Assembly: GCA_012034765.1 (NCBI GenBank)
Contig: JAAUOU010000017.1
Location: 1 to 49,281 of the forward strand
DNA from: Pleurocapsaceae cyanobacterium CSU_1_1
GTDB taxonomy: Bacteria; Cyanobacteriota; Cyanobacteriia; Cyanobacteriales; Xenococcaceae
Direction: 5' to 3'
DNA: 49,281 bases
Of the stretch, positions 7,240-19,773 are shown piece after piece. Within the stretch, counting starts at the first letter, position 1. Each line of letters opens with the position of its first letter. A program made the translations under genes and the position numbers. The notes under the pieces were generated by a model. It did no database searches. It had not been told where the DNA came from and saw only the letters and a list, made by a program, of their open reading frames with translations.

Positions 7240-8044
7240 CCAACTGCCTTTGTGCTTCGTACAACAGTAAAGCAGTGGTAATGGCAACGTTCAAAGACTC
7301 AACGTGATTTGCCAAAGGAATTTTTATGTGTATATCTGCTAAATCGAGCAACTGTGCTGATAATCCTGCACCCTCATTCCCTAGTAAAATTAGACTGGGG
7401 CGAGTAAAATCAACCTCCCAATAAGTTTTAGTAGCTTGAGAGGTAGTGGCAAGAATCTGCACTCCTTGCTGCTGCTGCTGCTTAACTAATTGAGGTAAAT
7501 CTTGGTTGGTCACGACAGGTAAGCGAAACCATTGCCCCGCACTAGCTCGCAGAACTTTGGGGCTATAAAAATCGACGCTATCAGGACTCAACCAAAGACC
7601 ATCAACTCCTGCTGCTGCTGCGGTTCGGATGATTGTACCCAAGTTACCAGGATCTTGCAGTCTTTCTAGGGCAATTCCTACATTTTTTAGAGTGGGTACT
7701 GTTTCGCTAATTGGTCGAGGAGCGATCGCCACCACTCCATCAGGATTAACCGTAGTTGCGATCGCATTTAATACTTCTGGACTAACTAATTCAACTCTAA
7801 CCTCTTGCTCGGCAATTATTCGGCATAATGGCTGATGATTTTGCTGCCATCGCTCTGTGTGAAAAATAATATCTAGCTTATAATCGGCATGGCAAGCAGC
7901 CTCAACTAAATTAGTTCCTTCAATCAGCAGCAAATTTTGCTTCTGTCGTTCTTGGGAACGATGTAGCTTGCGAGCCTGCTTGACTAAAGGATTTTTAATA
8001 CTGGTTAAAATGTTATTTTCCTTCCTGCTATTGACGAATAGCAA
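7220..8044 (-). CDS. TrmH/SpoU-family RNA 2'-O-ribose methyltransferase
   Basis: 274-residue SPOUT methyltransferase that transfers a methyl group from SAM to a ribose of rRNA or tRNA. An N-terminal substrate-binding domain (15-100, KNPLVKQARKL then LLIEGTNLVEAA) is followed by the knotted catalytic domain with the three family motifs: LERLQDPGNLGTIIRTAAAAGV (the N and R are catalytic), LLGNEGAGL, and IPLANHVESLNVA. The target nucleotide cannot be told from sequence. The C-terminal six residues and the stop lie inside a heptamer repeat, so the natural end may have been moved by repeat insertion. The start ATG is 31 bp from the neighbouring tRNA-Leu. Confidence 0.88.
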   Translation of the reverse strand: MLFVNSRKENNILTSIKNPLVKQARKLHRSQERQKQNLLLIEGTNLVEAACHADYKLDIIFHTERWQQNHQPLCRIIAEQEVRVELVSPEVLNAIATTVNPDGVVAIAPRPISETVPTLKNVGIALERLQDPGNLGTIIRTAAAAGVDGLWLSPDSVDFYSPKVLRASAGQWFRLPVVTNQDLPQLVKQQQQQGVQILATTSQATKTYWEVDFTRPSLILLGNEGAGLSAQLLDLADIHIKIPLANHVESLNVAITTALLLYEAQRQLAMSNEQ

Positions 8045-8075
8045 GGTTCAAAGTAATACTTTGATTGCCTAGCCA

Positions 8076-8160
8076 TGCGGAACTCGGGACTTGAACCCGA
8101 ATGTTTTAAACAAACACTAGAATCTGAATCTAGCGCGTCTACCAATTCCGCCAGTTCCGC
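8076..8160 (-). tRNA. tRNA-Leu (anticodon CAG)
   Basis: 85-nt cloverleaf: acceptor GCGGAAC pairs with GTTCCGC, the anticodon arm CTAGA-TTCAGAT-TCTAG gives CAG, a long variable arm typical of class II tRNAs follows, and the T-arm is CGGGTTCAAGTCCCG. Discriminator base A; the 3' CCA is not encoded. Confidence 0.95.
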
Positions 8161-8322
8161 ATCAGAATTAGATCTACAAGCTCTTATTATGATTGACTTT
8201 TATATTCAATGTCAAACTTAAAACTTGCCTTAAGTTAATTTTTTTAATTCAAAACTGTTCAATTGAATTTTTGAAGTCTATCTTAGTATTGCTCAAAAGC
8301 CCAAATAAATATATTTAATATC

Positions 8323-8328
8323 AAGAGG
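8323..8328 (+). promoter_or_regulatory. Ribosome binding site that places the murA start at an ATT codon
   Basis: AAGAGG ends 8 nt before ATT at 8337. It is the only Shine-Dalgarno-like sequence in the open frame upstream of the conserved murA N-terminus, and it lies only a few codons after the in-frame stop TAA at 8316-8318. Confidence 0.55.
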
Positions 8329-8336
8329 ATAAAGCT

Positions 8337-9689
8337 ATTAACTCTATCTCTAACCCAACCAAAATTACCTTAGAAGACTCTCAAGCTATATTAGAAATCT
8401 GGGGACGTTCTTCGCTTTCAGGAAATGTCCAAATTAGTGGGGCAAAGAATTCTGCTCTGGTCTTAATGGCAGGTTCTATACTCTGTCCTGGCAAATGTAC
8501 TTTACGCAACGTGCCAAACTTAGTTGATATTAAGCGTATGGGCCAGATACTCGAAGCTTTGGGCGTTAAGCTAAAGCGTCAAGACGATGTGATTGAAATT
8601 GACGCTACCAAAATTAACCCGACTGAAGCTCCTTATGATGTCGTATCTCAGCTTCGAGCTAGCTTCTTTGTGATCGGGCCTCTATTAACGAGGCTAGGTA
8701 CGGCTCGCGTTCCTCTACCTGGAGGATGTGCTATTGGCGCTAGACCAGTCGATCTTCATGTACGCGGACTACAGGCGATGGGGGCAAGCGTTTCCATTGA
8801 AGATGGTGTGGTTCACGCAAATTTGGTTGGTAATAATCAGCGCTTACGGGGAGGCAAAATTTATTTAGATTATCCTAGCGTTGGAGCGACAGAAACTATT
8901 CTCATGGCTGCTACTCTGGCTAAAGGAGAAACTAAGATTGAGAACGCAGCACAAGAACCAGAAATTGTCGATTTGGCTAACTTTTGTAATCAAATGGGAG
9001 CAAAAGTTACTGGTGCAGGAACTAATACCATAACTATTCAAGGGGTTAAAGAACTTAGCTCGATTGAATATAACGTAATTCCAGATCGGATTGAAGCAGG
9101 AACATTTCTCGTAGCAGGAGCAATCACCAAGTCGGAAATTACCTTGAGTTCAGTCATCCCCGAACATCTTGCCCCTGTAATCGCCAAACTCAATGAGATT
9201 GGCTGTCAGATAATGATTGAAGACGAAGCTGGTAAAACTTTTGGTGGGAATATTCAATCTAAACGCCTACGCATCATTCCTGGAGAGCTTCGTGGGACTG
9301 ATATTGAAACTCTTCCATATCCTGGCTTTCCTACTGATATGCAGGCGCAGTTTACTGCCCTATTAAGCATCAGTAAAGGCAATAGCGTGATCAGCGAAAC
9401 TGTGTTTGAAAATCGCCTCCGCCATGTAGCTGAATTACAGCGCATGGGAACTAACATTCGAGTTAAGGGTCATCACGCTATTGTTCAGGGTGTGGCGATG
9501 ATTTCTGGCGCACCAGTCATGGCAACTGATTTAAGAGCTTCTGCTGCTCTAGTTTTAGCTGGCTTGGCTGCGGAAGGTAAAACTACCGTTCATGGATTGC
9601 AACACCTCGATCGCGGTTATGAGGATTTAGAGCATAAGCTACGTGGTTTAGGTGCAAGACTAGAACGAATTATTCCTGAAGGCACATAA
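8337..9689 (+). CDS. murA: UDP-N-acetylglucosamine 1-carboxyvinyltransferase, non-ATG start
   Basis: MurA transfers enolpyruvate from PEP to UDP-GlcNAc, the first committed step of peptidoglycan synthesis in the cytoplasm. The catalytic loop [14 protein letters not shown] holds the Cys equivalent to E. coli Cys115, and ISGAKNSAL holds the Lys-Asn pair equivalent to K22/N23. That second motif is encoded upstream of the first ATG (8466), so starting there would remove essential residues. The frame is open back to TAA at 8316 but contains no ATG, GTG or TTG before 8466. ATT at 8337 follows AAGAGG by 8 nt and gives 450 residues, a normal cyanobacterial length. I therefore place the start at ATT. 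A sequencing error or point mutation in an original ATG is the alternative. Confidence 0.85.
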
Positions 9690-9720
9690 TACAACTATTT
9701 AATTATTTAATTATTCAAAA

Positions 9721-9752
9721 GCGATCGCTGCTTGTTACTGATAGGCGATCGT
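9721..9752. terminator. Possible hairpin downstream of murA
   Basis: GCGATCGC at 9721-9728 and GGCGATCG at 9744-9751 can pair over an intervening loop, followed by TTTATG. The T-run is weak, so this may simply be two HIP1-type words close together. Confidence 0.3.
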
Positions 9753-9760
9753 TTATGCTA

Positions 9761-9873
9761 AAGCCCTAAAGGATTCACTCTTTGTATATGCGTAGCGGTA
9801 TCCTTTAGGACTAGCTCCGCCCTAAAGGATTAGCTAGCGCGTCCGCGTCCGTCCTCCTTTAGGGCTTTTAACA
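9761..9873. repeat. Dispersed palindromic element with AAAGCCCTAAAGGA terminal inverted repeats
   Basis: The element begins AAAGCCCTAAAGGA and ends with the inverse, CCTTTAGGGCTTTT, about 110 bp apart. It holds further internal ATCCTTTAGGA and GCCCTAAAGGA words, so several nested hairpins are possible. Its segment 9820-9849 is identical over 30 bases, in reverse complement, to 19173-19202. There is no transposase inside. It occupies the spacer between murA and rubA. Confidence 0.7.
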
Positions 9874-9973
9874 GCCAGAAACTGCTGATCATTCAATCTT
9901 GTCTCTTCACCCTGTCTTTTTATGCGATAATTCATAAAAGAAAAATATTTTAATATTTGCTTAATATAAAGCA

Positions 9974-10375
9974 ATGAATGAGCCAGCTAAAGAAGAACAA
10001 TTAGTACCAAAAGAGATTCTCCCCGAGGAAAAGACTCTAGCGAAAGAGAAAACTTTGGCGGAGCAAGCTCCTTCGAGCTATGAATGTCGCTCTTGTGGTT
10101 ACGTTTACGTACCATCGAAGGGAGACAGCCAGGGGAAAGTTCCTGCGGGAACTCTCTTTGAAGAGCTATCTTCAGACTGGCGTTGTCCTGTCTGTGGTGT
10201 GCGTAAAACTCAATTTGTCAATATTGGCGCACAAGGCGCACCATCAGGCTTTGCTGAAAATTTGGATTACGGCTTAGGAATTAATCGTCTAACTCCTTCC
10301 CAGAAAAACATTCTGATTTTTGGTGCGCTAGGTTTAGGCTTTCTATTTTTCCTTAGTCTATACGGTTTGCACTAG
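9974..10375 (+). CDS. rubA: Membrane-anchored rubredoxin, photosystem assembly factor
   Basis: 133 residues. The rubredoxin core carries the iron-binding cysteine pairs CRSCG (Cys38, Cys41) and CPVCG (Cys71, Cys74), and a single C-terminal membrane helix spans about 111-131. The first 33 residues are a charged extension with a short repeat (EEKTLA, KEKTLA). RubA is required for photosystem assembly in cyanobacteria and is characteristically located upstream of ycf48 and psbEFLJ, exactly as here. The iron site is predicted to face the cytoplasm or stroma-equivalent side. Confidence 0.93.
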   Translation: MNEPAKEEQLVPKEILPEEKTLAKEKTLAEQAPSSYECRSCGYVYVPSKGDSQGKVPAGTLFEELSSDWRCPVCGVRKTQFVNIGAQGAPSGFAENLDYGLGINRLTPSQKNILIFGALGLGFLFFLSLYGLH

Positions 10376-10518
10376 TAGCGCTCATTTAGCCATGGGTATT
10401 TAAATCTAGATCACTAATGACACAGAGAGACATTTAGTCATGTCTTGCTGGTCAAACTAATTGCCAATTTAGAATCAAACATTGCTTTTATCTGCCTCAA
10501 CCAGTCACAAAAACGTTT

Positions 10519-11526
10519 ATGAGTTCATTGATTAAAAAATTAAAGCAAATAGCTGTTATATTTGCTGTCTGTATATTTTGTATTAGCTGTAGTCGAGTTC
10601 CGTCTACCATTACTAATCCCTGGAAGACGCTGACTCTTCCTTCTGAAGCGATTTTTTCGGATATTGCTTTTACCAGCAATTCAGATCGTGGCTGGTTGGT
10701 AGGAACACAAGCGACATTGTTTGAAACTACCAATGGTGGAGAAACCTGGACTCAGCAATCTTTAGAGTTAGGTGATGAAAAAGTTACTTTAGAAGCAATT
10801 AGTTTTGATGGTGATGAAGGTTGGATTGCAGGTCAACCATCTATTTTGCTGCATACTGAAGATGGCGGAGATAGTTGGGCGCGTATTCCTCTAAGTTCTA
10901 AACTTCCTGGTTCACCTTTAGATATTATTGCTCTGGGTAAATCAACCGCAGAAATGGTGACGAATCTTGGTGCAATTTATAAAACTGAAGACGGCGGTAA
11001 AAACTGGAAAGCTCTAGTCGAAGGCTCGGTTGGGGTAGCAAGAAGCATCCATCGTTCTGATGATGGTAGATATGTAGCTGTCTCAGCTAAAGGTAATTTC
11101 TTTTCTACTTGGGAACCAGGTGCGACGGAATGGACACCTCACCAGCGTACCTCATCTCGCCGTCTACAAAATATGGGTTTTAACCAAGATGGGAGTCTCT
11201 GGTTATTAGCTCGTGGTGGACAGGTGCAGTTTAGCGATACGGTCAATTATGATGAATGGGGAGAACCTATTTATCCTGAGTTTTCTTCTAGTTGGGGCTT
11301 TTTAGATGTGGCTTATCGCACCCCTGAAGAGATCTGGTTAGCAGGAGGAAGTGCTAACCTATTAGTTAGCCCCGATGGTGGTCAAAGCTGGTCAAAAGAC
11401 CGTGATGTGGAAGATGCTCCATCGAACTTTTATAAGATAGTATTTCTTTCCCCCGAAAAAGGTTTTGTTTTGGGTGAACGAGGAACACTATTAAAATATG
11501 TCCCCGAAGCTGGTGCTGCTGTTTAA
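10519..11526 (+). CDS. ycf48: Photosystem II assembly factor Ycf48/HCF136, lipoprotein
   Basis: 335 residues. The signal peptide ends in a lipobox, CIFCISC, with Cys24 as the probable lipidated residue, so the protein is lumenal or periplasmic and membrane-tethered. The remainder is a seven-bladed beta-propeller with repeated motifs such as TTNGGETWTQQ, TEDGGDSWARI, TEDGGKNWKAL and SPDGGQSWSKD. Ycf48 binds precursor D1 during PSII reaction-centre assembly and repair. It stands between rubA and psbE, consistent with a PSII biogenesis operon. Confidence 0.95.
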   Translation: MSSLIKKLKQIAVIFAVCIFCISCSRVPSTITNPWKTLTLPSEAIFSDIAFTSNSDRGWLVGTQATLFETTNGGETWTQQSLELGDEKVTLEAISFDGDEGWIAGQPSILLHTEDGGDSWARIPLSSKLPGSPLDIIALGKSTAEMVTNLGAIYKTEDGGKNWKALVEGSVGVARSIHRSDDGRYVAVSAKGNFFSTWEPGATEWTPHQRTSSRRLQNMGFNQDGSLWLLARGGQVQFSDTVNYDEWGEPIYPEFSSSWGFLDVAYRTPEEIWLAGGSANLLVSPDGGQSWSKDRDVEDAPSNFYKIVFLSPEKGFVLGERGTLLKYVPEAGAAV

Positions 11527-11609
11527 TTACTAATCTTAGTTGTAGGCAGTTACCCTTGTTTCGTATTATGTAAATAGAGCTTTAGAACATTTAAAAAGGA
11601 GAAACAAAC

Positions 11610-11855
11610 ATGGCAGGTGATACTGGTGAACGTCCATTTTCTGACATTATTACGAGTGTTCGCTATTGGGTAATCCATAGCGTTACTATTCCTATGCTAT
11701 TTGTAGCTGGGTGGTTATTTGTCAGTACTGGACTAGCTTACGATGCATTTGGCACTCCTCGTCCTGACGAGTATTTTACTCAAGAACGAATCGAGATTCC
11801 TGTAATTAGCGATCGCTATGATGCGAAACAGCAAATTAAAGAATTCAATCAGTAG
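11610..11855 (+). CDS. psbE: Cytochrome b559 alpha subunit
   Basis: 81 residues, the standard length. The single membrane helix carries the haem-ligand His in [11 protein letters not shown], followed by the lumenal tail [12 protein letters not shown]. It is preceded by a strong AAGGAG ribosome-binding site. First gene of psbE-psbF-psbL-psbJ. With PsbF it forms the b559 haem heterodimer needed for PSII reaction-centre assembly. Confidence 0.98.
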
Positions 11856-11892
11856 TACATTAATATTGATAGTCAAATTATAGGTAACAAAC

Positions 11893-12027
11893 ATGACAGG
11901 TAATAGTCCTAATCAACCCATTTCGTATCCCATCTTCACAGTGAGATGGTTAGCAATTCATACTTTAGCAGTACCCACTGTCTTCTTTTTGGGTGCGATC
12001 GCTTCAATGCAATTTATTCAAAGATAG
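11893..12027 (+). CDS. psbF: Cytochrome b559 beta subunit
   Basis: 44 residues. One membrane helix holds the haem-ligand His in [14 protein letters not shown], the hallmark of PsbF. It starts 37 bp after psbE and ends 15 bp before psbL, within the usual four-gene operon. The start ATG gives the usual N-terminus ending in [10 protein letters not shown]. Confidence 0.97.
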
Positions 12028-12042
12028 GAGTTAATATTAACC

Positions 12043-12162
12043 ATGGACAGAAATCAAAATAGTAACAGACAGCCAGTAGAGCTAAATCGTACTTCTCTTT
12101 ATTTAGGATTACTTTTAATTGCTGTTCTCGGCATTTTATTCTCTAGTTACTTCTTTAACTAA
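12043..12162 (+). CDS. psbL: Photosystem II protein L
   Basis: 39 residues with the PsbL signature [15 protein letters not shown] and the C-terminal SSYFFN. Single membrane helix. PsbL lies at the PSII dimer interface and is needed for forward electron transfer at QA/QB. The AGGAG upstream overlaps the psbF stop region, suggesting coupled translation. Confidence 0.97.
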
Positions 12163-12213
12163 AAAACCTGTTTTCGTCGATTTAAACTTTAAATAGCAAG
12201 AGGATTAAGAAAA

Positions 12214-12333
12214 ATGTTTGCAGAAGGAAGAATTCCCTTGTGGATCGTTGCTACGGTAGCTGGCATTGGTGTAATTGCTGTTGTTGGTACCTTCTTCTAC
12301 GGTTCTTATGCTGGCGTTGGCTCAGGGATGTAA
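12214..12333 (+). CDS. psbJ: Photosystem II protein J
   Basis: 39 residues with the PsbJ signature [17 protein letters not shown] and a glycine-rich C-terminus. Single membrane helix. PsbJ influences PSII assembly and QB-site function. It is preceded by AAGAGGAT and is the last gene of the operon; a hairpin terminator follows within 35 bp. Confidence 0.97.
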
Positions 12334-12366
12334 GTCTTGTTTTCAACAGTGTAGAATAAGCAAAAT

Positions 12367-12404
12367 AAACCGCCTAGTTGTTAATCTACATGGGCGGTTT
12401 TATA
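12367..12404 (+). terminator. Terminator closing the psbEFLJ operon (possibly bidirectional)
   Basis: AAACCGCC (12367-12374) pairs perfectly with GGCGGTTT (12393-12400), with T-rich sequence after it. The minus-strand HlyD gene ends at 12400, inside the stem, so the hairpin may stop transcripts from both sides. Confidence 0.8.
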
Positions 12405-14454
12405 GTTCTAAACCGCCTTTTTGGAGTTTTTTGAAAGGATCGAGTACAAAATCAATTAAACGACGTTGACGAATGATCACCTCCGCCGTAGCAGTTTGAC
12501 CAGGAGTGAGGGTAATTCGCTGATGATTACCTTCGATATAATCTCGCTCTAATTCGATTTTTAGTTCAAAGATTTCCTGTTGACCTTGAGCCGTTTCGAT
12601 TATCTTTGAGTCTGGAGAAATCCAGCTAACTTTACCTGCCTGTACTCCATAATCTTGAAAAGGATAGGCATCAAACTTAATCTTGACTGGCATTCCAACT
12701 CTCAAAAAGCCGCTTTCGGTAGGAGTCATGTTGGCTTTTAACGCCAAAGGAGAATCTTCAGGAGCAATCTCGACTAAATTTTCTCCCGACTGTACGACTG
12801 CGCCTGCCCCAGAGATAGGTAAGTGAAATACCGTACCACTAGCGGGTGCTTTTAAAACTCGCTGGGTTAGCTGAAAGTTCAAAGAACCAATTTGGCTTTT
12901 GCCTTGAGCAATTTCGGAATTGAGGTCAGAAATTTGAGTCTCTAAATTTTTGAGTTGCTCTTCGGTTTTTAGCAATGCTAGTTTTCCTGAATGGACAACA
13001 CTTTGATAGCTACGCTCTTGTTCTTGTAGGCGCAAACCTGCCTGTTCGATTTCTGATTCGGTTTGTTGAATTAATTTGTCGTAATTACGTAGTTGTTCCG
13101 TAAGGCGATCGCGAGATTGTTCTAGTTCTGAACCTGCTACAGTAAGACGTTCTTGGTTTTCTGCCGCTTGCTGTTGAATATCTTCAAGGCGGTCTGCGGG
13201 GATGATGCCATCTTTAAAAGCTTGATCATAGCGAGACGCTTTTTTTTGTGAACCTGCCAGAGCAACTTCGGCTAATCGATGATTAGCACCACTGGCATTA
13301 ATCGCACCTTTAAATTGTTCAAGTTGGGCTAACTTTTCTTGTTTTTGAGTCAGATAAAGGGTTTGGAGTCCATTGAGATTTTGTCTAGCTTGCTTTACCT
13401 GGGCTTGTTTTTCTAATTCTTGAGCTTGGTTTTGTTGTTCTTGGGTACGTAGTGCCAAAGATAGTTGATTTTGCATCAGTTCAAGCTGGGTTAAACGGTT
13501 TAGTTGACCCGTTTGTTTCTCTTCTAGCTGCTGAAGATCAGCTCGAATCACATCGGATTCTAACTCTAGCAAAACTTGTTGGGCTTTGACTGTATCGCCT
13601 TCTTTGACTTTGATCGCGGCGACTGTACCAGCTACGGGTGCGTCTAGCTCAACTATTTGGGCTTTGGGTTCTAATTTACCGCGAGCCATACCCGTTTCGT
13701 CTACTTTAGCTAAAATCGACCAGGGTAAAATTATCCCTGTAAAAACTACCAACACATAAAATAAGCCTCTAGTCCAAAGACGAGGCATAGCATCTAGTAA
13801 ATCTTTGGTCGCCATTGACCAGTCTTCTTCTGGGAACGATGCTAGTTTTGAGCTAGAAGGAACTATAGCTGTGCTATCAGTAACTCCGCTAGTCCTTTCG
13901 GAGATTAATTTGAGATTGAAGACCTCATCATCATCTAATTCTTTTCTCAAATCATCTAATTCTTTTTTTAAATCGACCTCAACCTCTGGAACTTTTGTTT
14001 CTATTGGCTGAAATAATCCCTGACTCAAATGTACATAGTTGCGATCAGTAAAGCGAATGGCACGAGCTAGTTCCTCAGAGGAGGCATTTTTACTAAGATA
14101 TCCCTTAGCACCGGCATCAAAAGCTGCATCGATGTACTCCTGTTGGTCATGACTGCTTAAAATAACTACTTTAGTAGCGAGGAAAGACTCACTAAATTTT
14201 CGAGTTGTTTCAATTCCATCGATACCAGGCATTTCAATATCAATCAAGGCAATATCTGGTTGCAGCTTTGCTGCCAATTCTAGAGCTGTTGCGCCATCAT
14301 TAGCCATACCAACAACTTCGAGATCGGGTTCTGCTTCTAGAGCTATGGGCATTAGTTTGCAGATAAGATTTTGGTCATCAACAATCAGAATTCGTATTTT
14401 CTTAACGATTTCTTCGGTAAAGCATGAATCTTGGGTTTCAGTTTGATAGGACAT
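12400..14454 (-). CDS. Response-regulator receiver domain fused to HlyD-type membrane fusion protein
   Basis: 684 residues. Residues 20-135 are a NarL-like receiver domain with an intact acidic pocket (Asp26, Asp27), phosphoacceptor Asp72 in LIDIEMPG, Ser100 in VVILSS and Lys122 in YLSKNAS. An acidic linker with the repeated unit DLKKELDDLRKELDDD follows (about 161-176), then one membrane helix (about 230-248). The rest is a periplasmic adaptor: biotinyl-lipoyl half-motif (APVAGTVAAIKVKEGDTV), a long coiled-coil hairpin (about 305-525), second lipoyl half (KAPASGTVFHLP) and beta-barrel. The receiver would be cytoplasmic and the adaptor body periplasmic, so phosphorylation could act directly on a type I exporter. 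The usual NarL DNA-binding domain is absent. It lies 171 bp downstream of the ABC transporter, on the same strand. Confidence 0.9.
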   Translation of the reverse strand: MSYQTETQDSCFTEEIVKKIRILIVDDQNLICKLMPIALEAEPDLEVVGMANDGATALELAAKLQPDIALIDIEMPGIDGIETTRKFSESFLATKVVILSSHDQQEYIDAAFDAGAKGYLSKNASSEELARAIRFTDRNYVHLSQGLFQPIETKVPEVEVDLKKELDDLRKELDDDEVFNLKLISERTSGVTDSTAIVPSSSKLASFPEEDWSMATKDLLDAMPRLWTRGLFYVLVVFTGIILPWSILAKVDETGMARGKLEPKAQIVELDAPVAGTVAAIKVKEGDTVKAQQVLLELESDVIRADLQQLEEKQTGQLNRLTQLELMQNQLSLALRTQEQQNQAQELEKQAQVKQARQNLNGLQTLYLTQKQEKLAQLEQFKGAINASGANHRLAEVALAGSQKKASRYDQAFKDGIIPADRLEDIQQQAAENQERLTVAGSELEQSRDRLTEQLRNYDKLIQQTESEIEQAGLRLQEQERSYQSVVHSGKLALLKTEEQLKNLETQISDLNSEIAQGKSQIGSLNFQLTQRVLKAPASGTVFHLPISGAGAVVQSGENLVEIAPEDSPLALKANMTPTESGFLRVGMPVKIKFDAYPFQDYGVQAGKVSWISPDSKIIETAQGQQEIFELKIELERDYIEGNHQRITLTPGQTATAEVIIRQRRLIDFVLDPFKKLQKGGLEL

Positions 14455-14625
14455 TTTTATGGCGTTGGTGATTTAATAATGACGTACAAAGTAAGACTGT
14501 TCGGAGCTATTAGCTGTCAGCTATTAGCTATGAGCTTTTGAATAACTTTTATCATTTGGATAAGTATTCGGATAGTGGAAAAGCATTACACATTCAGCAA
14601 CGCCATTTTTATAAATCATTAATCG

Positions 14626-17600
14626 TTAATTATTAATCGATAACTGTTGTTGGTTTAAATAAAAGTAATGACCCTGTTTGGTCATTAGCTCTGAATGGGT
14701 ACCGCTTTCAACCAAAATGCCTTGATCGAGGACTAAGATTAAATCAGCTTGGCGAATTGTGGAGAGGCGGTGGGCAATGACAATAGTGGTGCGACCTTTA
14801 AGAATAGTATTTAGGTTAGTTTGAATAATTCGCTCTGATTCTGCGTCGAGGTTACTGGTAGCTTCATCTAAAATCAATAGACGAGGATTGCCTAATAAAG
14901 CACGAGCGATCGCTAAACGTTGACACTGCCCCCCTGAAAGCATTCCGCCCCGTTCGCCGATGGGTGCTTCGTAGCTTAGGGGCAACTGTTCAATAAAATC
15001 ACTTGCCCCTGCCAACACCGCAGCATGGCGAATCTCTTCGATCTTGGCTTCGGGATGGGAAATGCTGATATTTTCTCTGATTGTCCCGCCAAATAAGAAA
15101 TTAGATTGATCGACTACCCCAATTTGCGATCGCAAAGATTGTAGAGATACAGTAGTTAAATCTTGACCATCAATTAAAACTTTACCGTCGGTAGGTGCAT
15201 ACATACCCAAAATCAACTTAGAAACAGTGGTTTTTCCCGAACCGCTACGACCGACAAGGGCGACAGTTTGTCCTGGCAACACTTCAAAGCTGAGATTTTC
15301 AATTACATTGGTTTCGTTATCTGGGTGATAGCGAAAAGTTACTGCTTGAAAAGATAAGTGTCCCTTCAAAGATGACATGATTTGACGGGGTTGATGATTG
15401 AGGTCTTCTTCTGGCTCGGCATCAAGGACATCATTAATTCTTTCGACAGAAATAACTACTTCTTGGAGTTGATTCCACAAGATTGTCAGTCGCTTGAAGG
15501 GGCTAATCACATTGGCCAGGAGCATATTAAAAGCCACTAATTGACCGATAGTAAGTTGGTTTTGAATAACTTGCCAAGCGCCGTAGCCTAGAATAGCGGT
15601 GCTAGCTAAGACTTCAATCGTTGAGCTAAAAATTTGGAGTTGATTACTGATCACCTGTCCCGAGAAAGTTTTGGCAATTGAGCGATTGAGCAATTGTTCC
15701 CATTGCCAGCGGACTCGCTGCTCTACTGCCATGGATTTAATGGTGGTTACTCCTGTCAGAGCCTCAATTAAAAAGCTGCTTTCTTTGGCCAGAGCCGTGA
15801 AAATTTCGCGGGAAACTTTTTGTAAAAATGGGGTGGCAATTAGAGCCAGTAATAAAAACGGCGGCACAATCGAAAGTGCTAGTAAAGCTAGTTGCCAGCT
15901 ATACCAAAACATCAAGCCGATATAAATAAATACGGTGAGCAAATCGAGGACGATTGATAGAGCTTCTCCCGTCAAGAAACGCTGGATTTTATGATTTTCC
16001 TGAATGCGAGCAATAATATCCCCGACATAACGAGATTCAAAAAAGCTCAGGGGTAAACGCAAAGTATGACGAATAAAACCAACGATTAAAGCTGCATCAA
16101 CCCGCTGGGCAGTGTGATCCAGTAGATACTGACGCAATCCCGTCATTACTACTTTAAATAGCCCAAAAATTAATAAACCTACTATTACAGCGATTAAACT
16201 AAGACTGCTACGTTGCACCACCACGCGATCGAGTAACAGTTGAGTTAGCAACGGCGTTACCAAGGAAAATATTTGGATCAACAAGGAAGCTACAAATATT
16301 TCCGAGAGTACTAACTGATGGGGACGGACTAATTCTAAAAACTGCCAAAATTGAGTCTTGACTTCTTGAGCTTCGGTTAATAAAACTGTCGGCTGGAGCA
16401 ACAGAGCATAATCAGTCCAGCCAGCTTGAAACTCTCTCGCCGTCAGGGTACGTTGACCCAAGGCAGGATCGCCGACTACCACGCGATCGCCTTTAATTTC
16501 ATACACAACTATGTAATGGTTGCCTTCCCAATGAGCGATCGCTGGAAGTTGTTGTTTGGCTAGTTGGTCCAAAGATGCTTTAACAGGTCGCGTCACGAAG
16601 CCAATTGTGTCCGCCGCTGTGATCAAACCTTTGAGCAATGAACCACTACGATTTACCCTAGCTAATTCTCGCAGTCGATTGAGACTGAATTGTTTGCCCC
16701 AATAGCGTCCCACCATTACCAAACAGGCTGCACCACAATCGGAAGCACTTTGTTGACCATAGTAAGGATAACGACGAGTCAATCGTTGCCAAAGATGACC
16801 AACTCGTTGAGCTGGTTTGGGGAAATAAACTTGGGGCTTTTTGGGGGGCTGCTTAGTAGCAACTAGCTGAGGAATATCGATAGTCGACGCTACACGACTT
16901 AAATTCTTTATCTTTGGTAGTTTCGGGTTAGCTGTACCTGTTGGCAGTAAATCTAACTCTCCCTGTTGGGCATTTTCTTGACTCAGGGTATATAGTTCTG
17001 TCGGTTTTTGAACTTGCCAAGAGTTATCTACATTCTTTAAGTCGGGAAAATGAACACTACCAGATTGAAGTAGCCTCTCAGAGTTAATTAATTCCCCTCT
17101 TCTAATTAACCACATTCCTTGATCCTTAACCGCTGACTCTTTTAGCTTTCCTGGTAATAAATGATGAGGTTGCAGCAAAGAAACAATTTTATTTAACTCG
17201 GTTACGGTCGTATTTTTAAATTCAGCAGTTTGACGACAAAGCAGCAATAATTCTAGATGCAAAGCACGACGGCGGAATTGTTTGCCCAGAGACGTGTTTT
17301 GTGTGATTAACTGTTGTAAGAGTTCCCCAGGTAAATAGGCAAGCTTCAGTTTAAAAGAAGCCCTCGCCATATAGGGAAAAAATGTTTCTTGGGGAAATAG
17401 AGTCAACTCCCCAAAAGATGACCCTGGTTCTAAGGATGCTAAAAATTCATCTTGGTAATCGAGCAATCTGGCTTTACCTGCGATCGCAATATAGATCCCA
17501 GGAGTCGATCCTGAAGATTGCCAAAACTGTTCCCCTGGGTTAGGTTCAACGATCTGAATCGCCTTAAGACAGAGGTTTAGTTCTGAGGAAGATAGTTTGA

Positions 17601-17673
17601 TCCCAATGGCTTGCTTGAGCTTTTGTTCTAGATCTTTTTTCAGAGTCGATGGAGATGATATATCTAGAGTCAT
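14626..17673 (-). CDS. C39-peptidase ABC exporter with N-terminal cyclic-nucleotide-binding-like domains
   Basis: 1015 residues. The first 140 or so form a cNMP-binding-like domain, including the cassette FGEL...YMARA (about 87-105). A second degenerate copy may follow (about 160-235). The C39 protease domain holds Cys313 in SDCGAAC, His386 in GNHYIVV and Asp402 in GDPALG, so it should be active; such proteases remove double-glycine leaders from exported peptides. Six membrane helices (about 455-730) lead to the ATPase: Walker A GRSGSGKT (808-815), signature LSGGQ (912-916), Walker B LLILDE (932-937). With the HlyD partner this makes a peptide or protein exporter spanning the inner membrane. 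It starts 33 bp after the HTH gene and is probably co-transcribed. The substrate is not identified. Confidence 0.92.
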   Translation of the reverse strand: MTLDISSPSTLKKDLEQKLKQAIGIKLSSSELNLCLKAIQIVEPNPGEQFWQSSGSTPGIYIAIAGKARLLDYQDEFLASLEPGSSFGELTLFPQETFFPYMARASFKLKLAYLPGELLQQLITQNTSLGKQFRRRALHLELLLLCRQTAEFKNTTVTELNKIVSLLQPHHLLPGKLKESAVKDQGMWLIRRGELINSERLLQSGSVHFPDLKNVDNSWQVQKPTELYTLSQENAQQGELDLLPTGTANPKLPKIKNLSRVASTIDIPQLVATKQPPKKPQVYFPKPAQRVGHLWQRLTRRYPYYGQQSASDCGAACLVMVGRYWGKQFSLNRLRELARVNRSGSLLKGLITAADTIGFVTRPVKASLDQLAKQQLPAIAHWEGNHYIVVYEIKGDRVVVGDPALGQRTLTAREFQAGWTDYALLLQPTVLLTEAQEVKTQFWQFLELVRPHQLVLSEIFVASLLIQIFSLVTPLLTQLLLDRVVVQRSSLSLIAVIVGLLIFGLFKVVMTGLRQYLLDHTAQRVDAALIVGFIRHTLRLPLSFFESRYVGDIIARIQENHKIQRFLTGEALSIVLDLLTVFIYIGLMFWYSWQLALLALSIVPPFLLLALIATPFLQKVSREIFTALAKESSFLIEALTGVTTIKSMAVEQRVRWQWEQLLNRSIAKTFSGQVISNQLQIFSSTIEVLASTAILGYGAWQVIQNQLTIGQLVAFNMLLANVISPFKRLTILWNQLQEVVISVERINDVLDAEPEEDLNHQPRQIMSSLKGHLSFQAVTFRYHPDNETNVIENLSFEVLPGQTVALVGRSGSGKTTVSKLILGMYAPTDGKVLIDGQDLTTVSLQSLRSQIGVVDQSNFLFGGTIRENISISHPEAKIEEIRHAAVLAGASDFIEQLPLSYEAPIGERGGMLSGGQCQRLAIARALLGNPRLLILDEATSNLDAESERIIQTNLNTILKGRTTIVIAHRLSTIRQADLILVLDQGILVESGTHSELMTKQGHYFYLNQQQLSINN

Positions 17674-17705: not shown

Positions 17706-18338
17706 TTAGTATTCTTTTTCAATCGGAAATAGTCTAAAGTCCACTGATGTAGGTTCACAAGTGTAACTAAGATTACCAATCACAATTCCAGGGCGATTTC
17801 CCTTTGGGAACACTCCGCGATCGCTCTGGAATTGTTTATCTGTCTCCAAAGTGTTCTGACGAGTAGATAGTCCCATCTTTTTCAGCAGTCGATTGATATG
17901 GCGCTCACCTATTTCAATATTTAACTCTTTTGCTAAATGTTTACCTAACCATTTTGCTGTCCAGCGAGTAAAAGGGTAGCCACAATCTCTAGGACTTTGA
18001 TTGACTAACTCTTCCAATCGATTTAGATACTCTTCGTTAACCCTCTTTGGTCTACCAATAGATAGTTCGTGCCAATTATGAGCTTGTCCGATTCGTGCCG
18101 TATAAATCCAATATCTGGCGGTTTCATTAGAACAGTTTAGAGTCTGGCAAATTTCTGCTTGAGAATGTCCTGAATCTGCCAGCAACATAATTCTAATCCG
18201 ACGCTGGAATTCAGGACGCAAATCTTCTTCTAAATTTTTAAGTAATAGCTTTCGTTGAAATGGTGATAGTAATGTACCGTTTTCCTGCTCTGAAGCATTA
18301 GTTTCAGTAACATTTGGGTTTAAGTAATTGCTTATCAT
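17706..18338 (-). CDS. Helix-turn-helix protein related to the IS630 transposase DNA-binding region
   Basis: 210 residues. Residues 35-105 form a Sigma70-like HTH (RIMLLADSGHSQAEICQTL, then NETARYWIYTA), and 110-170 a winged helix (TAKWLGKHLAKEL and ERHINRLLKKMG) of the type found at the start of IS630 transposases. No DDE catalytic domain follows. The C-terminal 40 residues are unlike transposases, and no inverted repeats flank the gene. This suggests a DNA-binding regulator rather than a mobile element. It is the first gene of the export cluster, 33 bp before the transporter, and may control it. Its own target is unknown. Confidence 0.7.
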   Translation of the reverse strand: MISNYLNPNVTETNASEQENGTLLSPFQRKLLLKNLEEDLRPEFQRRIRIMLLADSGHSQAEICQTLNCSNETARYWIYTARIGQAHNWHELSIGRPKRVNEEYLNRLEELVNQSPRDCGYPFTRWTAKWLGKHLAKELNIEIGERHINRLLKKMGLSTRQNTLETDKQFQSDRGVFPKGNRPGIVIGNLSYTCEPTSVDFRLFPIEKEY

Positions 18339-19384: not shown

Positions 19385-19723
19385 TTACTTCCACCCCTGT
19401 TCAGCCTGTTGTAAGACATAAGCACTAACATCTGCTATTTGTTCGGGAGTTAACTTATCTCCATAAGCTGACATGATTCCTTTACCGTTAGTAACCAAAG
19501 AGGCGATCGCTTCTTGAGTATCAACCTTATGTTTACGTAAAGCTTTAGACTTTAGGTTTTTACCCCGTCGTACAATATTGCTCCCATTTATATGACAGCC
19601 AGCACAGTTGGCTTCAAACACAGCTGCACCATTGTTTAAGTTAGTAGAAATAGAATCTGCTAAAGCGGGACTGCTAAAGGCAATAATGGCAATTAAAGTA
19701 ATTAGCGCAATAATCTTTGGCAA
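19385..19723 (-). CDS. petJ: Cytochrome c6-like c-type cytochrome
   Basis: Small lumenal or periplasmic electron carrier. A signal peptide ending in SSPALA precedes the mature protein, which has the haem motif CAGCH, a probable axial Met in GIMSAYG, and the family C-terminus ADVSAYVLQQAEQGW. Cytochrome c6 carries electrons from cytochrome b6f to photosystem I or a terminal oxidase. I place the start at TTG 19723 (MPKIIALIT), which has GGGAG at a good distance; an in-frame TTG at 19753 would add ten residues that do not look like a leader. A c6-like paralogue is possible, as some cyanobacteria have several. Confidence 0.8.
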   Translation of the reverse strand: MPKIIALITLIAIIAFSSPALADSISTNLNNGAAVFEANCAGCHINGSNIVRRGKNLKSKALRKHKVDTQEAIASLVTNGKGIMSAYGDKLTPEQIADVSAYVLQQAEQGWK

Positions 19724-19773
19724 AACAAAACTCTCCCAAGCCAATAATATCAATAATAACTAACAAGCCTGTA

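Follow-up and report, generated by a model that had tools for sequence, protein, structure and literature searches.

Pleurocapsaceae cyanobacterium CSU_1_1 encodes, within the 49,281-nucleotide stretch of DNA analysed here (the window), a protein in which a complete response-regulator receiver domain is joined in a single frame to a type I HlyD-type secretion adaptor. The protein may be the periplasmic adaptor of a cyanobacterial 'bacteriocin'-type double-glycine exporter whose N-terminal receiver, held on a flexible tether, controls export through phosphorylation, a tentative reading to which we give a little less than an even chance. The features of the gene and of the cassette to which it belongs are as follows.

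12400 to 14454, minus strand: receiver-HlyD fusion gene, 684 aa, frame unbroken from ATG to stop
14044 to 14397, minus strand: receiver domain, residues 20-137 (Pfam PF00072 at 22-134; AlphaFold strands and helices)
14239 to 14241, minus strand: codon of Asp72, the presumed phospho-acceptor
13825 to 14040, minus strand: variable disordered linker, about residues 139-210 (pLDDT <50)
13768 to 13824, minus strand: conserved juxtamembrane element, about residues 211-229, common to fused and unfused relatives
13708 to 13764, minus strand: likely transmembrane segment, about residues 231-249 (hydropathy maximum)
12403 to 13707, minus strand: periplasmic HlyD-type adaptor, residues 250-684 (TIGR01843, AlphaFold model, Foldseek)
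14626 to 17673, minus strand: cNMP-like / C39 peptidase / ABC transporter, 1015 aa, ahead of the adaptor gene and in the same orientation (Pfam domains and motifs)
17706 to 18338, minus strand: short HTH protein, 210 aa (IS630 transposase model NF033545, positions 1-117 of 299)

Architecture of the fusion protein

In Pfam the receiver is matched at residues 22-134 with 91.3 bits (Response_reg, cut-off 30.2, E 5.6e-26) and the adaptor at residues 533-652 with 75.3 bits (HlyD_3, cut-off 22.2), while the NCBIfam type I adaptor model TIGR01843 (type_I_hlyD) exceeds its cut-off of 208.65 by a narrow margin at 211.9 bits. The active-site set of the receiver, Asp26, Asp27, Asp72, Ser100 and Lys122, is present in full. 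These matches, above the cut-offs and in one frame, bear out a first-pass annotation that had described just such a receiver fused to an HlyD adaptor. It had also proposed kinship with the NarL type of regulator with the DNA-binding output replaced, and this holds as well: the best NCBIfam receiver models for the protein are MctR and NarL, the related solved receivers are those of DesR, VraR and NarL, and there is no DNA-binding (HTH) domain among the Pfam matches, which sets the protein outside the NarL family of regulators. Around 230 residues lie ahead of the likely transmembrane segment, the most hydrophobic 19-residue stretch beginning at residue 231, so that the protein departs from the short cytoplasmic tail that the annotation gave for HlyD proteins. 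It is this long N-terminal extension that is the new part, the adaptor portion itself being unaffected.

The AlphaFold model, built with 30 sequences, has a mean pLDDT of 72.0 and a pTM of 0.38, and at this pTM the relative placement of its domains is no evidence of contacts. The model contains the whole (beta-alpha)5 receiver fold at residues 20-137, a region with pLDDT below 50 across residues 139-231, two helices of more than 100 residues each (301-414 and 420-530) and a beta-rich part. In Foldseek searches the receiver matched DesR receivers, including those of DesK-DesR complexes, with TM scores of 0.80-0.81 (by target length) at 1.7-1.8 Å and 38-40% identity, and the adaptor part was grouped with EmrA, MacA and HlyD.

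The linker between the two parts ranges from 32 to 110 aa across the 31 fused type I proteins; its length, variability and disorder point to tethered docking more than to rigid coupling. Following it, Thr216, Leu219, Asp221, Pro224, Thr228 and Arg229 do not vary among 30 sequences, of which 25 lack a receiver. As the juxtamembrane element is conserved with and without a receiver, it would seem that the receiver was added ahead of an older cytoplasmic element. Internal ATG codons at residues 214, 223 and 256 may yield a receiver-less product. A promoter scan found 14 candidates against 14.0 expected and is uninformative.

The exporter cassette

The fusion gene is the last of a cassette of three, preceded by the genes for the IS630-like HTH protein and the transporter, in that order. 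The transporter is matched in Pfam by Peptidase_C39 (127.6 bits), ABC_membrane (166.9 bits) and ABC_tran (122.4 bits), with a further cNMP_binding match below its cut-off (26.3 bits against 27.5, E 7.5e-6). The C39 domain contains the motifs QQSASDCGAAC, HYIV and DP, within which we take the catalytic residues to lie, and the Walker A and signature motifs are also seen. The short HTH protein is possibly a domesticated fragment of an IS630 transposase that acts as a regulator. On either side of the cassette lie psbE (Pfam) with small psbF/psbL/psbJ-like frames identified by eye (11610-12330, plus strand) and a c-type cytochrome gene (Pfam; 19385-19753, minus strand).

Cassettes were compared where 4,500 bases or more lay upstream of the adaptor, which removed one fused adaptor out of 18 and six unfused ones out of 85; also excluded from the count were search loci of short length (L001-L004, L006 and L089-L117), duplicates, and adaptors without a segment below 1e-35. 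A C39-ABC gene on the same strand precedes 16 of the 17 testable receiver-HlyD genes and 77 of the 79 receiver-less HlyD genes. The suggestion that the fusion always sits beside a C39 ABC transporter is thus upheld for all of the testable fused adaptors except one. The upstream transporter carries the cNMP-like domain at 15/17 fused and 75/79 unfused loci, and the HTH gene lies ahead of the exporter at 12/17 and 58/79, respectively. Among the 18 transporters of the fused cassettes and of contig C99 of CSU_1_1, 15 fit the motif pattern for C39, Walker A and signature; the remaining three have QHSNSDCG or QHSASDCS at the Gln/Cys site, with the Gln and Cys kept. The receiver-less cassette is the common form; the exporter is a common one, of which the fusion is a less frequent variant bound to particular lineages.

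Candidate cargo peptides

Candidate cargo was found as small frames that share a leader of the type GSELFxDSESFLxEL...GG and have variable cores. Such frames occur at 4 of the 18 fused loci and at 35 of the 84 unfused ones (L133 being omitted from the count), compared with 0 of 102 loci shuffled in two-base blocks. Three of these peptides are encoded beside a close relative of the window gene, L010. In the window itself a pattern search, which included a scan of 21 kb around the cassette, found no double-glycine precursor. Elsewhere in CSU_1_1, contig C92 encodes four peptides with GG leaders in a 19-kb stretch that includes two PpiC-type rotamases (Pfam); none of the 11 frames of at least 120 aa in this stretch, viewed by eye and six of them scanned by Pfam, resembles an ABC transporter. 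That the window transporter serves the C92 peptides is inferred, and contigs C155 and C99 also carry candidate exporters. Of four peptides scanned against NCBIfam, the one at L134 matched a class IIb bacteriocin model (24.2 bits, cut-off 21.5) and the other three had matches below cut-off only.

The genes around which the four C92 peptides are arranged (C92:66000-85000, L242, at about 7501-15580) are those of an APH-like kinase (32.1 bits), a HopA1-family protein (200.8 bits), an aldo/keto reductase and the two rotamases. We take the pairing of a kinase with a HopA1-like protein to be reminiscent of class V lanthipeptide clusters.

Distribution of the fusion

Altogether 38 non-redundant receiver-adaptor frames were collected, all from three cyanobacterial families (f1, f31 and f40), which are also the families searched most closely. 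The adaptor is of type I in 31 and more distant in seven (L005, L120, L124, L133, L210, L215 and L218). Intact fusions are found in Pleurocapsa CCALA 161 (94%), Pleurocapsales LEGE 06147, Pleurocapsa MO_192.B19 and Waterburya KI4, and CSU_1_1 has a second intact type I fusion, with its own cassette, on contig C155. Counting a receiver as included when the match starts at query residue 20 or earlier, the fusion is present in 17 of 27 genomes of the organism's own family (full-length copies in 14; divergent copies only in G103, G483 and G486), in 6 of 11 genomes of the family of G054 and in 5 of 29 of the order of G393, where the matched region of G502 and of G503 includes a single counted stop codon. 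An evenly drawn set of 386 genomes from across the phylum, searched at E ≤1e-80, showed it in two, CSU_1_1 and G393; no more than the top three candidates of each genome were scored, and divergent copies would escape this search. Sampling beyond the cyanobacteria consisted of a plasmid set and one pattern-seeded scan of GTDB contigs, in which the best 80 of 130 loci included four fusions, those of the four relatives just named.

Three plasmid records matched at E values up to 1e-30; their matches start at query residue 189, 210 or 211 and cover the adaptor alone, and do not represent spread of the fusion on plasmids. Nor did Pfam detect hidden receivers in the N-termini of the unfused HlyD proteins at L055, L087, L135, L140, L145 and L147. 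Contig C99 of CSU_1_1 carries a third type I cassette (L121:6616-8603), whose receiver-HlyD frame has its break inside the receiver; it is not a case of separate receiver and HlyD genes, as the remainder of the receiver runs on in the HlyD frame. At L211 (G508, a genome 76% complete) the receiver occupies its own frame of 143 aa, possibly as a split copy.

Receivers on other classes of adaptor

Three further contigs of CSU_1_1 encode receivers on other adaptors: a DevB protein on C64 (L120:5630-7540; TIGR02971, 293.1 bits, cut-off 129) with an ABC ATPase gene nearby, an RND-type adaptor on C187 (L124:4056-5912; TIGR01730, 172 bits, cut-off 94.9), and a divergent type I adaptor on C11 (L119:7107-9251) whose 178.3 bits fall below the cut-off of 208.65. 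A genome of the same genus, G120, has a receiver on an NHLM adaptor (L133:8326-10299, contig C5; TIGR03794, 415.3 bits, cut-off 156.2), adjoined by two ABC genes. The RND fusion on C187 looks local, since no other match among 194 genomes at E ≤1e-60 reaches the receiver, the others starting at query residue 148 or later, an assessment based solely on the range of each match and the length of its frame.

A 620-aa protein on contig C36 (L123:5330-7189) also has a receiver at its N-terminus, with a hydrophobic stretch around residue 161 and some 440 residues that no Pfam family matches. It was rejected as an adaptor, having no Pfam adaptor domain and only receiver families in the best 25 of its 89 NCBIfam rows, and it has no notable similarity to the C64 fusion outside the receiver.

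That receivers recur across adaptor classes is the best indication that placing one on an export adaptor is a matter of design and not of accident. It is possible, rather than probable, that this lineage has repeatedly placed receivers on the cytoplasmic end of adaptors of several classes (type I, NHLM, DevB and RND) and so built a class of response regulators with the assembly or opening of an envelope-spanning export machine as their output, switched by phosphorylation, with about six receivers per pump and no transcription.

Conservation and evolution of the receiver

All five active-site residues are kept in 29 of the 38 fused receivers; eight are damaged and one (L005) is ambiguous, its DD motif being in frame but ahead of the first ATG, GTG or TTG. 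The damage comprises D72G in L010, D27N and D72N in L163, the first acidic residue in L091, several positions in L207, and loss of the second acidic residue in L011, L012, L132 and L169, one clade of fused proteins whose receivers are set apart by a long branch in the receiver tree. On the adaptor tree the nearest relatives of the window protein are L009, L163, L089 and L010, two of them with intact sites and two (L010 and L163) without Asp72.

The ratio dN/dS, calculated by the Nei-Gojobori method with a custom script, is 0.17 for the receiver, 0.55 for the linker and 0.08 for the HlyD part between the window protein and L009, and 0.11, 0.31 and 0.14, respectively, between L106 and L185. In three further pairs the receiver value is 0.13-0.24, the degenerate pair L011/L132 giving 0.24. 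The receiver is therefore under purifying selection while the linker drifts.

On a quick adaptor tree of 63 rows (31 fused and 32 unfused representatives) the presence of the receiver changes 11 times, at least eight of these being forced by supported branches, and the true number will be lower because the 'receiver-less' tips include L003, which is frame-broken, and L211, the possible split copy. The receiver tree is poorly resolved; the type I receivers do not form one clade on it (eight changes, four forced), and the receiver of L204 lies on a long branch among unrelated receivers. Repeated gain, loss or exchange are all possible explanations of this scatter.

Histidine kinases near the cassettes

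Kinases were sought by phmmer with one HisKA/HATPase query in the frames of all loci then in the set, a search that distant kinases may escape. A kinase adjoins one fused cassette only, that of L131, where it is a REC-PAS-HisKA-HATPase protein; with this query no dedicated kinase was found at the other fused cassettes. The remaining matches were at the receiver-less locus L043 and at L232, a stretch of the CSU_1_1 genome.

Relation to known systems

Receiver proteins that act on machines and not only on genes include CheY, which acts on the flagellar motor, and PorX of type IX secretion; these are separate proteins, whereas the receiver of the window is fused to the envelope machine. The cytoplasmic signalling domain of Alg44 responds to c-di-GMP and serves alginate synthesis, in contrast to the phosphorylation and peptide export proposed here. 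Alg44 combines a PilZ with an HlyD-like domain, so a signalling domain on an HlyD-like protein was already known (PMC4971617, in the part of the paper available). NarL/DesR-type regulators have receivers like that of the window protein in sequence, fold and active-site residues, but the window protein has an export adaptor in the output position in place of a DNA-binding domain. The solved HlyD-type adaptors 8dck, 7sgr and 5c21 resemble its adaptor part in sequence or fold, and the window protein differs from them by about 210 extra residues of receiver and linker before the juxtamembrane element.

The type of exporter has been published. In the available part of PMC3140520, cyanobacterial bacteriocin clusters contain a long-type transporter with CAP_ED and C39 domains, and a rotamase (SurA) is present in groups I, II and VI. 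As in the window, C39 and ABC domains are combined in one protein with HlyD adjoining; the nucleotide-binding N-terminus of the published transporters has its counterpart in the window only in the cNMP_binding match below cut-off. These clusters hold double-glycine precursors, of which none was found in the window. The same portion of text treats HlyD as a single-domain protein and contains neither 'response regulator' nor 'receiver'. In the PteB/EbfG system of Synechococcus elongatus PCC 7942 small GG peptides are secreted efficiently only when the C39 transporter has its Cys (PMC4997328, available part), and within that part 'HlyD' is absent and a receiver-adaptor was not found. The candidate cargo peptides, with the rotamases on C92, fit these published accounts, so far as the available portions go. 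Judged from its sequence, the exporter of the window works like the published double-glycine peptide exporters; as no precursor was found in the window, it is described in these terms and not as a proven member.

Among the papers listed in searches of mainly openly accessible literature, none describes a receiver-HlyD fusion, judged by title or abstract, in agreement with the annotator's statement that no characterised example was known; an earlier mention is possible. Nor was one found in the available parts of PMC8277102, PMC4365693, PMC4971617 and PMC13125312, or in that of the main text of PMC9953108, where 'HlyD' is absent. It is the receiver version of the signalling-domain-on-HlyD design that was not found in print.

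A possible role for the receiver in export

On the reading preferred here, the C39-ABC transporter would cut the leader after the GG and the peptide would be exported through an HlyD/TolC-type conduit. By analogy with 8dck and 7sgr, each of which contains six adaptor chains, about six receivers would ring the ATPase side of the pump. Asp72 would be phosphorylated by a kinase encoded elsewhere, and the receivers, then paired or docked differently, would alter assembly, substrate access or ATPase activity, such that export follows two-component signalling and needs no transcription. Where relatives have a damaged site, the receiver would by now be a docking module that is fixed or independent of phosphate. 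NarL/DesR-like receivers pair upon phosphorylation and, by this analogy, phosphorylation-driven pairing within the adaptor ring would be our preferred mechanism.

Control by phosphorylation is favoured by the intact site in the window protein and in 29/38 receivers, purifying selection, the C39-ABC gene before 16/17 fusions, the receivers on DevB, RND and NHLM adaptors, the DesR-like fold, the six-chain adaptors and the GG-leader frames. It is disfavoured by the loss of Asp72 in two of the four nearest relatives, the eight damaged sites, the finding of a kinase beside only one fused cassette with the single phmmer query, the disordered linker of 32-110 aa, the greater frequency of the receiver-less cassette and the lack of a GG peptide in the window. 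Phosphorylation gating would thus seem plausible, and probably not universal among the fusions.

The damaged receivers that stay fused (L010, L163, L091, L207 and L011/L012/L132/L169), and the dN/dS of 0.24 that the degenerate pair L011/L132 still has, would also be expected of a phosphate-independent docking or pairing module that steadies the adaptor ring or places the pump, with signalling secondary or absent; we consider this somewhat unlikely given that the window protein and 29/38 receivers keep the full site. It is improbable that signalling runs in reverse, the adaptor-anchored receiver being a phosphate sink or a reporter of pump state that acts on kinases or transcription and not on export. 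Receivers on several adaptor classes and the kinase beside L131 would fit such a role, but the phmmer query revealed no dedicated partner at other fused cassettes, and cassettes without the receiver also exist. Were the receiver a harmless passenger in the course of being lost, its scatter on the adaptor tree (11 changes, at least eight forced), the site losses and broken copies such as C99 would be explained; retention across three families and values of dN/dS well below 1 (0.11-0.24) in five receiver comparisons make this very unlikely. An assembly or frame error that joined two genes, which the annotation would have recognised from separate genes in all close relatives, can be dismissed, as the same fusion occurs in independent genomes, among them the four relatives named above, nothing in the window points to it, and the sole broken case (C99) splits a fusion instead of making one.

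Should phosphorylation of the receiver gate export, the protein would be a response regulator with the secretion machine itself as its output, and the release of bacteriocin-like or signalling peptides could follow a sensor without new gene expression. Natural relatives that have lost the site or lack the receiver offer ready comparisons, and the question comes down to Asp72 against the export of a defined GG peptide.
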